This document shows, piece after piece, positions 20,495 through 24,333 of a stretch of 64,000 nucleotides of DNA (positions within the stretch are counted from its first letter, which is position 1; every line of letters begins with the position of its first letter). The translations under genes were made by a program, and so were the position numbers. The notes beneath the pieces were generated by a model. The model did not search any database. It worked only from the letters and a program-made list of their open reading frames with translations, and was not told the DNA's origin. The stretch comes from Fibrobacter sp. UWH6. GTDB taxonomy: Bacteria > Fibrobacterota > Fibrobacteria > Fibrobacterales > Fibrobacteraceae. The stretch spans positions 124,001-188,000 of the forward strand of contig NZ_FRAX01000001.1 in NCBI RefSeq assembly GCF_900142465.1. The letters run 5' to 3'.

Positions 20495-22717
20495 ATGGAC
20501 ATGAAATCTGCCGAAAGTCCGGCTGAAAAAATTCTCTCTGGCTTGAATTCTGACCAGAGGGCCGCTGTTTTGCATAATCACGAATCTGGGGCTCAGCTTT
20601 TGATTTTGGCTGGTGCGGGGTCGGGAAAGACATCCGTGTTGACCAAGCGCATCCAGTACCGCATACTTTGCGGTGTGGCTCCCGAAAAAATTCTAGCGCT
20701 GACTTTTACGGCTAAGGCGGCTGCTGAAATGCGGGAGCGTGTACAGGCCTTGTTCCCTAATGCGGGGGTGCGCCTTTGCACGTTTCATTCTCTTGCGCTT
20801 TATATGTTGAAGTGTAAGGTTCCTGCAAATGGGGATGGTTCTTCGGGGGAAGTGTGTGCGTACGAGTTGCTGGGGTTTAAGAAGATTCCCTCTCCGACAG
20901 AATCTGCAGAGAGAAACTTTGCCCATCGGCTTATGGAACTTAAAATAAAAAGTGGAACAGTCCTTCGTGAAAATCTCTTTTCTTATGGGTTGTCGGCAAA
21001 ACTGCAAAAGAAGTTGGCACCCCTCCGGGAGGAAGTCCATCAGACTGGTCGTGTGGTTTTTGAAGATTTGATATTTGAGGCGATTCGCCTGATCGAAGAG
21101 TTTCCCTTTGTTCGGGACTATTTTCAGAGTCTTTGGTCTGAAATTCTTGTTGATGAATATCAAGATATCAATCCGACTCAATACCGTATGGTTAAGGGTC
21201 TGCTTGGAAATCGGAAATCCCTTTTTGTTGTGGGGGACGATGACCAGGCTATTTATGGTTTCCGCGGGGCTGATATCGGCAATATTAACCGCTTCCGAGA
21301 CGATTTTAGGGAGAGTACGCTGATTCGCCTGGAATGGAATTACCGGTCTGTTCCCAATGTACTTCATTTGGCGAATCAGATTTTTACGAATAAGCCCATT
21401 CATTTGCGGAAGGTCCTGCGTGCTGGAAATCCTTCGGGCTCCAAGGGGAATCCCATCTTCAAGGAAAATCGGAAACCTGAAGTGTGGGTGTCCGATAATC
21501 CGGTGGAGGAAATGCAGAAGGTTGTTCAGTCCATTAAGGAACTTCGGATGGGCTATGACTTGGAATGGAAAAACTTTGCCATTCTTGTAAGGTATAACCG
21601 CCAGCGGCTTTATTATGAAGAGGCCCTGCGGGATTATAACATTCCCATTGCGGGAGGGCCTGCAGAAAATGGTGAGGAAGGGGCCGTCCTGGAAAACGGG
21701 GTGCATGTGGAAACTGTGCATGCGTCAAAGGGGTTGCAGTACGCGGTGGTCTATTATGCGGGGCTTGCCGAGGGGTTGACTCCTGGGGCGTGTACGGGAT
21801 CTAGGTCTCAGCGGAAAAGGCAGTTGGAAGAGGAGCGTCGTCTGTACTATGTGGGGGTGACTCGTGCGGAGGCCTGTCTGATTTTGTTATATTGCAAACG
21901 TAGATTTTGGAAGGGGCAGTTGTGTAAGTTCAAACGTTCCAGTTTTTTACCGAAGGAAAGCTCCTGTAAGTCTAAAGGTTTGATGATGCCTCTCGTTTTT
22001 TTTAGAATTTATGTCGTCCTGATTGTTCTTGGCTACTTGTGTGTGCAGATGATTCGTGTGCCCTATGCCAAGTGGCGGCATGGCGGAGATATGACTCCTT
22101 GGGTCGATGGCCGTATCCAGTTCTTTTCTGCTTTCTGTTTGAAGATGCTCCGTGTGGAATTGAATATTGAAAATCAGGCTGCGCTCGGCAAAGTGGATTG
22201 GACTCGCCCCGTATTTGCGGTTGGAAACCATGGCTCATTTTCGGATATCCCTATGGTTTTTCTTGCCCTTCAGCGGACATTTGGTTTTGTGGCCAAGGAG
22301 TCTCTGGGCAAGGTGCCGTTCCTTCATTTTTGGATGAAGCAGATTGGCTGTGCCCTGGTGAACCGTTCCAAGGGTGGTGCCGCAGCCGCCGTACGACGTG
22401 TTATCGCGGAACGAGGAGCTGCTCCCCGCTTGTTTATCTTCCCTGAAGGAACCCGCAGTAAAGACGGAGCTTTGGGTCCTTTTAAGAGTGGCACTTTCTA
22501 TTTTGCCCACGAAAATGACGGCTTCATTCTTCCCTTGGTCATCAAGGGCTCTGCCGCTGTCTGGGAGAAACGAAAGAATGCCGGACCGTGCAAGGTGACG
22601 GTGAAAATTCTTGATCCTATTGACGTGAAGGCGTTGAAGGAATCCAATCCCGATATTGATCCGAAGCAGGATTTGTGTCCTATGGTTCATGATCGTATGG
22701 AAAGTGCATTGAGGTAG
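20495..22717 (+). CDS. Fusion ORF: UvrD-like helicase plus PlsC-type acyltransferase
   Basis: 740 residues in one uninterrupted frame. Residues 1-490 are a compact superfamily 1 helicase: motif I LAGAGSGKTS, Ia LTFTAKAAAEM, II ILVDEYQDIN, III GDDDQAIYGFRGA, IV RLEWNYRS, V VHASKGLQ, VI EERRLYYVGVTRA. It is shorter than UvrD/PcrA (about 700), mainly between motifs IV and V. After a basic stretch (KRSSFLPKE), residues 497-740 are a lysophosphatidate acyltransferase with an N-terminal hydrophobic helix, NHGSFSD (the HX4D motif) and FPEGTRS. An internal ATGATG at 21982-21987 preceded by AAAGG could start the acyltransferase separately, so both a fusion protein and a free PlsC may be made. It is followed 8 nt later by murI. 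Confidence 0.85.
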   Translation: MDMKSAESPAEKILSGLNSDQRAAVLHNHESGAQLLILAGAGSGKTSVLTKRIQYRILCGVAPEKILALTFTAKAAAEMRERVQALFPNAGVRLCTFHSLALYMLKCKVPANGDGSSGEVCAYELLGFKKIPSPTESAERNFAHRLMELKIKSGTVLRENLFSYGLSAKLQKKLAPLREEVHQTGRVVFEDLIFEAIRLIEEFPFVRDYFQSLWSEILVDEYQDINPTQYRMVKGLLGNRKSLFVVGDDDQAIYGFRGADIGNINRFRDDFRESTLIRLEWNYRSVPNVLHLANQIFTNKPIHLRKVLRAGNPSGSKGNPIFKENRKPEVWVSDNPVEEMQKVVQSIKELRMGYDLEWKNFAILVRYNRQRLYYEEALRDYNIPIAGGPAENGEEGAVLENGVHVETVHASKGLQYAVVYYAGLAEGLTPGACTGSRSQRKRQLEEERRLYYVGVTRAEACLILLYCKRRFWKGQLCKFKRSSFLPKESSCKSKGLMMPLVFFRIYVVLIVLGYLCVQMIRVPYAKWRHGGDMTPWVDGRIQFFSAFCLKMLRVELNIENQAALGKVDWTRPVFAVGNHGSFSDIPMVFLALQRTFGFVAKESLGKVPFLHFWMKQIGCALVNRSKGGAAAAVRRVIAERGAAPRLFIFPEGTRSKDGALGPFKSGTFYFAHENDGFILPLVIKGSAAVWEKRKNAGPCKVTVKILDPIDVKALKESNPDIDPKQDLCPMVHDRMESALR

Positions 22718-22725
22718 GGACTGCT

Positions 22726-23535
22726 ATGATTGGTGTTTTTGATTCCGGTTTTGGCGGTCTAACTATTTTGCGGGATTTGCAAAAGGTGTTGCCGCAGTAC
22801 GACTACCTGTATCTGGGGGATAATGCCCGCGCTCCCTATGGTTCCCGTAGCTTTGAAACCATTTACCGCTATACGTTGCAGGCGGTTCGTGAACTGTTTA
22901 GTCGTGGATGCCCCCTGGTGATCCTGGCTTGCAATACAGCTTCTGCACGAGCCCTTCGCAGTATCCAGCAGCAGGTGCTTCCTATTGAATTTCCTGATCG
23001 CAGGGTGCTGGGGATTATCCGTCCCACTGCAGAAGAAATTGGACGTGTCAGTAAGACGGGACATATCGGGATTTTTGCGACGGCAGGAACGGTTTCTTCG
23101 GGAAGCTATCCCATCGAGATCAACCATTTTTATCCGGAGCTGAAGGTGACTCAGCATGCGTGCCCCATGTGGGTGCCCTTGGTTGAGTATGGCGAACGGG
23201 AATCCGATGGTGCTCGTTACTTTGTTAAAAAGGAAGTGGAGGCCGTTTTACGTGAGGATCCTGAAATCGACACCATCCTTTTAGCTTGTACCCACTATCC
23301 GCTGCTGGAAAAGGCTATCCGCGAATCTACTCCGCCGGGGGTGAACTTGGTGTTTCAGGGGAGTATCGTGGCGGACAAGACTGTCGACTATCTGAAACGT
23401 CACCCGGAAATAGAAAAACGACTTGCGAAAAACGGTAAAACCAGTTTTTTGACTACAGATACGGCCGAATTCTTTGAAAAAGGCGCCTTTTTCTTTGGAA
23501 TGCAGGACATTTCTGCTGAATCGCTGACCTTTTAA
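22726..23535 (+). CDS. murI: Glutamate racemase
   Basis: 269 residues. Converts L- to D-glutamate for peptidoglycan. Both catalytic cysteines are present in their motifs: ACNTASARAL near residue 67 and LLACTHYPLL near residue 187. The protein opens with IGVFDSGFGGLTILRD. Length is normal. It starts 8 nt after the helicase-acyltransferase stop, so the two are probably cotranscribed. Confidence 0.93.
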   Translation: MIGVFDSGFGGLTILRDLQKVLPQYDYLYLGDNARAPYGSRSFETIYRYTLQAVRELFSRGCPLVILACNTASARALRSIQQQVLPIEFPDRRVLGIIRPTAEEIGRVSKTGHIGIFATAGTVSSGSYPIEINHFYPELKVTQHACPMWVPLVEYGERESDGARYFVKKEVEAVLREDPEIDTILLACTHYPLLEKAIRESTPPGVNLVFQGSIVADKTVDYLKRHPEIEKRLAKNGKTSFLTTDTAEFFEKGAFFFGMQDISAESLTF

Positions 23536-23694: not shown

Positions 23695-24333
23695 ATGCCG
23701 AAGACACAGATTAATCTCGATGGTTGGCAGGACTACCGCGGTAACGCCGCAGGCAGCTTGCTTTATGTAGAAACTAGCCACCAGTCTGAAATGCCGGTGC
23801 GCGACCAGCTCAACGAAAATGGCAAGGGCTTCCTTTCTGAACCGAACTACGAAACCAGCACCTATGGCCTCGTGAGCTGCTACAATGTGAAGGCAGTGAA
23901 TGCTATCCTCAAGGCCAAGAGTCGCTACATTCTTTTCGGTACCCGCTACGAAGGTCTCAGCGATTCCGAAATGCGCAACAAGTACCTGATCATGGGTTAT
24001 ATGCGCATCGATAAGATCAAGGACGTTCGTACCCGCCACATCCAGCGCTACATGGCTAATCCGGAACTTCAGGAACCGGAATGCATGCAGATGGAACACA
24101 ACTGGGCTGTTTATGGTCCCATGCGCTTTGTCTCCATGAACGATTCCTTTGTCGTTACCGACGAAATCCTCAAGGAATGGGGTTACCGCGGTCACGCTTC
24201 CCGTCAGCTGAAGGCTGTATTCCAGAAGGAACATCTTGAACAGATCCTTTCTTACCTGGATTCCAAGGAAGATATGATCGACGAATATATCGCTACCGTC
24301 GACGAATACAAGGAAGCTTTGGAAGAAGGTTAA
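23695..24333 (+). CDS. Uncharacterised 212-residue protein
   Basis: Not recognised. Soluble, no signal peptide or membrane segment. It opens MPKTQINLDGWQDYRGNAAG, has a central region with RYILFGTRYEGLSDSEMRNKY and YMRIDKIKDVRTRH, and ends in an acidic helix (SYLDSKEDMIDEY). Codon use is like the highly expressed genes here (many AAG, CTG, GGC), which argues for a real and well-expressed gene. A strong terminator follows. Confidence 0.7.
   Translation: MPKTQINLDGWQDYRGNAAGSLLYVETSHQSEMPVRDQLNENGKGFLSEPNYETSTYGLVSCYNVKAVNAILKAKSRYILFGTRYEGLSDSEMRNKYLIMGYMRIDKIKDVRTRHIQRYMANPELQEPECMQMEHNWAVYGPMRFVSMNDSFVVTDEILKEWGYRGHASRQLKAVFQKEHLEQILSYLDSKEDMIDEYIATVDEYKEALEEG

Follow-up and report, generated by a model that had tools for sequence, protein, structure and literature searches.

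The window analysed here is a 64,000-nt stretch of the genome of Fibrobacter sp. UWH6 (contig NZ_FRAX01000001.1, positions 124,001 to 188,000), and all coordinates given below are positions within it. At 20495-22717 on the forward strand there is a single open frame of 740 codons with no internal stops, a fused gene coding for a compact UvrD-like helicase and a PlsC-type acyltransferase. The 740-aa product contains the Pfam domains UvrD-helicase (residues 17-271, 8e-59), UvrD_C (residues 399-468, 1e-27) and Acyltransferase PF01553 (residues 570-684, 1e-19), and the motifs of both halves were all found, namely Walker A (GAGSGKT), DEYQD, GVTRA, HX4D (as NHGSFSD) and PEGTRS. The open frame, the domains and the motifs thus confirm the first-pass annotation, which had described a compact UvrD-like helicase with all motifs running into PlsC without a stop.

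The neighbours of the fusion in the window are genes coding for a methyltransferase, a glycosyltransferase, a membrane protein of the LPG_synthase_TM family and a glutamate racemase (murI), the last of which is separated from the stop of the fusion by an 8-base gap (22717 to 22726). In many Fibrobacter relatives (L009-L029) the match to murI starts immediately at the stop of the fusion gene, which suggests that the two are translationally coupled in those relatives. Downstream of murI there is a CDS (23695-24333, forward strand) coding for a 212-aa protein with no Pfam, NCBIfam or PDB match, which shows about 86-99% identity across Fibrobacter species and 67-75% in other genera and in most cases surpasses murI (about 80%) in conservation.

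The helicase module (residues 1-485, 20495-21949, forward strand; PF00580/PF13361) ends in a conserved SxFL tail. It carries Walker A at residues 40-46 (20612-20632), the Walker B/motif II sequence DEYQD, of the DExQD type, at residues 220-224 (21152-21166) and motif VI, GVTRA, at residues 454-458 (21854-21868), with its arginine R457, and with these features it is a UvrD-like SF1A helicase, which would be expected to unwind in the 3'-5' direction with ATP. Its best solved relative, both by sequence (8e-61) and by fold, is PcrA (1PJR), which is matched at its residues 5-378 and 548-637 only; as the part in between, approximately 379-547, has no counterpart in the module, subdomain 2B is missing. 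The module shares all the signature motifs with PcrA, UvrD and Rep and differs from them in lacking 2B, in scoring far under the equivalog cut-offs and in being fused to an acyltransferase; with 293.7 bits against the pcrA equivalog cut-off of 911.2, it falls outside the PcrA/UvrD/Rep orthologue group. The source genome encodes other, longer UvrD-like genes as well.

A natural SF1 helicase of similar size (1590 bp) that likewise has no 2B is PcrA-s (MPN340) of Mycoplasma pneumoniae, which, unlike the Fibrobacteraceae fusion, is free-standing, belongs to an unrelated lineage and has no acyltransferase. PcrA-s was reported to be highly active without any 2B and was presented in the same 2013 paper as the first SF1 member from nature to be without this subdomain (PMC3720892), and the Rep monomer without 2B is described as an active helicase in a passage that refers to Brendza 2005 (PMC13238157). 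Natural SF1 helicases without 2B can be active. Despite the claim that PcrA-s was the first natural example, compact UvrD-like helicases with a length of about 500 aa occur widely in Fibrobacterota outside Fibrobacteraceae and were also detected in other phyla (e.g. L034-L036, L039 and L067).

The helicase module also scores against the PADLOC models of GajB and RTasHel, so a phage-defence helicase of the GajB or DRT type that has acquired a membrane anchor was considered. These scores are accounted for by generic UvrD similarity, the PcrA/UvrD/Rep models scoring higher, and there is no GajA-like gene among the neighbours, such as would lie next to gajB in a Gabija system. Moreover, the gene occurs throughout the family and mostly in synteny, without a patchy distribution. 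A role in defence is therefore highly improbable and was rejected.

The acyltransferase module starts with a hydrophobic helix (residues 500-529, 21992-22081, forward strand) which is predicted to be a membrane anchor. Its Kyte-Doolittle peak is 2.33, the family median being 2.16, and a hydrophobic peak of at least 1.6 is found within the first 45 PlsC residues in 94% of the members. AlphaFold2 places helices at residues 500-529 and 534-551, which agrees with an N-terminal membrane-anchoring helix, and PlsC is a monotopic membrane protein whose anchor is a two-helix motif at the N-terminus (PMC10146087). The HX4D motif, including H579 and D584, lies at 22229-22246 and the PEGTRS motif at 22442-22459. 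HX4D, PEGTR and the N-terminal hydrophobic helices are shared with the PlsC of T. maritima (5KYM), which aligns in sequence too and matches the module in fold with a TM-score of 0.74 on the target, so that the PF01553 hit, the motifs and the fold together place the module among PlsC/LPAAT acyltransferases. The fused enzyme differs from the T. maritima type in that it sits behind a helicase and misses the curated AGP_acyltrn cut-off (75 vs 103 bits), which makes lysophosphatidic acid uncertain as the acceptor. The source genome encodes other PlsC-type genes and, as noted, other UvrD-like helicases, and there is thus no obvious reason to take the fusion for the only source of either activity.

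To follow the junction through the family, 108 distinct Fibrobacteraceae fused proteins were aligned across it, duplicates and contained fragments having been removed. The two domains share a single frame in all 108. Residues R457, H579 and D584 are kept in 108 of 108 proteins, and K45, D220, E221, E651, G652 and R654 wherever a sequence extends to them. A family search gave a match in all 111 Fibrobacteraceae genomes, and in nearly all of them the match spans the query from end to end with the frame open, in some cases as two pieces on either side of a helicase insert. The genomes without a full-length match have contig-edge fragments, apart from G101, which is without the locus; loss of the gene there was considered, and a missing contig is likelier, since this assembly also lacks the upstream LPG_synthase_TM gene that is syntenic elsewhere. 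The fusion was found in all 11 Fibrobacteraceae genera searched and is absent from the other Fibrobacterota genomes searched. Genomes G035, G055, G059, G062, G071, G075 and G086 (e.g. loci L158, L159 and L163) have a lineage-specific in-frame insert at helicase residues of about 111-120, which splits the match before motif II and leaves the frame open.

An error in assembly or sequencing, or the recent loss of a stop codon in this genome only, is practically out of the question as an explanation of the single frame. No point in its favour was found, and against it stands the same architecture in 108 distinct proteins from many independent assemblies, including the single-contig genome G102. 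A hidden stop near 21970, set beforehand as the result that would overturn the fusion, does not exist, and a search of other Fibrobacter genomes, proposed along with it, revealed both modules in one ORF in all 23 Fibrobacter-type loci reaching the acyltransferase on the contigs of relatives, so the gene is not the oddity of a single assembly. The helicase-PlsC fusion is real, ancient and family-defining in Fibrobacteraceae.

The two modules are joined by a linker (residues 486-497, 21950-21985, forward strand) which is hypervariable, being 10-29 aa long in relatives and represented by 85 distinct peptides among the 108 proteins, and which has pLDDT values below 50 at residues 489-496. On the helicase tree at least 695 nucleotide changes fall within the linker, with no stop arising, while the neutral expectation of 5.5% stops per change gives P of about 6e-18 for such an outcome; Fitch counts in this poorly alignable region may be inflated, and even a fraction of them would stay significant. 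Its length changed about 15 times, and each change kept the reading frame, adding or removing whole codons. The linkers were also read in the other two frames as a control, and there stops are present in 43 and 50 of the 108 sequences as against none in the real frame. Due to the absence of stops, the in-frame length changes and the stops in the other frames, read-through of the linker must be regarded as selected, and the join of the helicase and PlsC is held by purifying selection. The fusion also persists where the surrounding synteny is lost (e.g. in L151-L155, L157, L160 and L161).

A short, variable linker which is rich in Lys, Pro, Glu and Ser and predicted to be disordered would also suit a single polypeptide that is later cut at this exposed place into a soluble helicase and a membrane-bound PlsC in equal amounts. 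Yet no conserved cleavage motif is visible among the many different linker peptides, and none of the residues that lie between the SxFLP tail and the PlsC start is conserved, so cleavage is very unlikely.

As to the origin of the gene, compact helicase matches elsewhere in the Fibrobacterota stop at the helicase end and carry no acyltransferase, and the sister family f2 has a free helicase, with PlsC encoded elsewhere. In the outgroup genus g14, which belongs to the same class, a plsC gene directly follows the helicase gene in the same order and on the same strand. In five of the six g14 genomes (L132, L133, L135, L137 and L142) the two genes share a 4-nt ATGA/GTGA stop-start overlap and lie in different frames, and in the sixth (L134) they overlap too, with a start that could not be placed. 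The g14 pair thus has the compact helicase and an orthologous PlsC in common with the fusion and differs from it in consisting of two genes in different frames instead of one frame. Among the loci checked in other phyla, plsC beside a compact helicase was seen just once, in a weak and distant case (L065). A RimO-like gene lies near the compact helicase in outgroups (L130, 3961-8459; L132, L133, L135 and L137; L165, 3150-4484), which suggests an old shared locus; in the window, no such linkage was seen beside the fusion.

The maximum-likelihood tree unites the fused PlsC with that of g14 and with the non-adjacent ones of genus g15 and genome G153 in a single clade (98/94), separate from the remaining PlsC genes that these genomes carry. 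Strict monophyly of the fused and adjacent PlsC did not withstand the AU test (p 0.0004), as the non-adjacent g15 and G153 orthologues nest inside, which fits a loss of adjacency. With separate orthologous neighbours in g14 and the fusion family-wide, the proposal that two former genes have become one is borne out. The proposed route, loss of the stop codon, had to be modified. The fusion occurs in every Fibrobacteraceae genus searched and is old, not the product of a recent stop loss, and the g14 pair lies in another frame; for the latter reason a frame change was needed and not just a lost stop, and plain stop loss was discarded. The fusion most likely arose by a merging of frames. The simplest history that we infer from the observed tip states is one in which the frames of an overlapping neighbour pair merged in the ancestor of Fibrobacteraceae, while adjacency would have been lost in other lines.

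The old boundary of PlsC is marked by a conserved start codon at residue 498 (21986-21988, forward strand), just upstream of which there is a further ATG at 21983, so that the sequence at 21983-21988 reads ATGATG. At the ancestral PlsC start, the 108 sequences have ATG in 100 cases, GTG in three and TTG in two, and the remaining three have ATG or GTG one codon later; a start-type codon is thus found within one codon of this position in 108 of 108. All five replacements of the internal ATG at the exact position are GTG or TTG, as compared with 15 of 144 replacements in other mostly-Met columns (Fisher p 2.7e-5, a guide only, the sequences being related and not independent), and in the linker columns just before the internal start start-type codons occur in 0-15% of sequences. 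Pro follows the junction Met almost always, and for this reason the Met could be partly structural. The conservation of the codon favours a working internal start, and the locus probably makes two products, the fusion and a free PlsC.

The ATGATG and the AAAGG upstream of it (21974-21978, forward strand), a candidate ribosome-binding site, had both been noticed in the first-pass annotation as signs of internal initiation. The start signal is indeed kept throughout the family, the conserved ATG being the second (21986) and not the first, whereas the Shine-Dalgarno part of the argument is weak. The mean Shine-Dalgarno energy at the junction is -4.07 kcal/mol, compared to -2.42 in an average column and -4.58 at the start of the whole gene, and the junction is equalled or surpassed by 129 of 718 columns; being only modestly above background, its signal was not accepted as proof of internal initiation.

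If PlsC may be made alone, as the conserved internal start suggests, the two enzymes could also be coupled by history only, working independently in a frame kept to secure PlsC expression by ribosomes arriving from the helicase. The distribution of the genes agrees with this: in many Fibrobacterota no plsC adjoins the compact helicase, and g15 has the PlsC orthologue with no compact helicase among the matches listed, so neither gene needs the other everywhere. On the other hand, the ATGA/GTGA overlap of g14 evidently suffices, yet none of the 108 fusions shows a stop near the start, for all the turnover in the linker, and the fusion outlives the breakdown of the surrounding gene order. Coupling by history alone is a possible reading, and a rather unlikely one.

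The reading that we prefer, a selected ancient fusion which arose by merged frames, gives two products and anchors a helicase at the membrane, is given a probability of about 0.7 as a whole. According to it, the locus would yield the 740-residue full-length protein and a free PlsC of 243-244 residues. In the AlphaFold2 model, which is of moderate quality (pLDDT 76, pTM 0.45, domain 2A being modelled poorly in parts), the long helix at residues 500-529 follows the disordered linker, and it is plausible that this helix tethers the helicase to the inner membrane. The hydrophobic helix would anchor the full-length protein on the cytoplasmic face, where the ATP-driven helicase would work beside the membrane on a short flexible tether and the acyltransferase would act on a lysophospholipid in the bilayer. 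The further step, a membrane-tethered SF1 helicase whose activity is physically coupled to phospholipid acylation, is speculative and quite unlikely; the locus would, for example, make the tethered and the free form at a fixed ratio, and through this lipid synthesis and the processing of nucleic acids at the membrane would inform each other.

In the open-licence papers searched, there is no description of a Fibrobacter helicase-acyltransferase fusion, a UvrD-PlsC fusion or a membrane-anchored UvrD, nor was a UvrD-type helicase found there to be connected with the acylation of phospholipids. Each half belongs to a known family, and the novelty is the combination of domains, not the kind of enzyme. 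Conserved fusions usually mark functions that gain from being together. The series from free genes through overlapping genes to a fusion in which the former start codon survives is a clean one, and with the fusion being ancient, selected and present in the whole of Fibrobacteraceae, a family that includes cellulose-degrading gut bacteria, a link between DNA and the membrane becomes directly testable.
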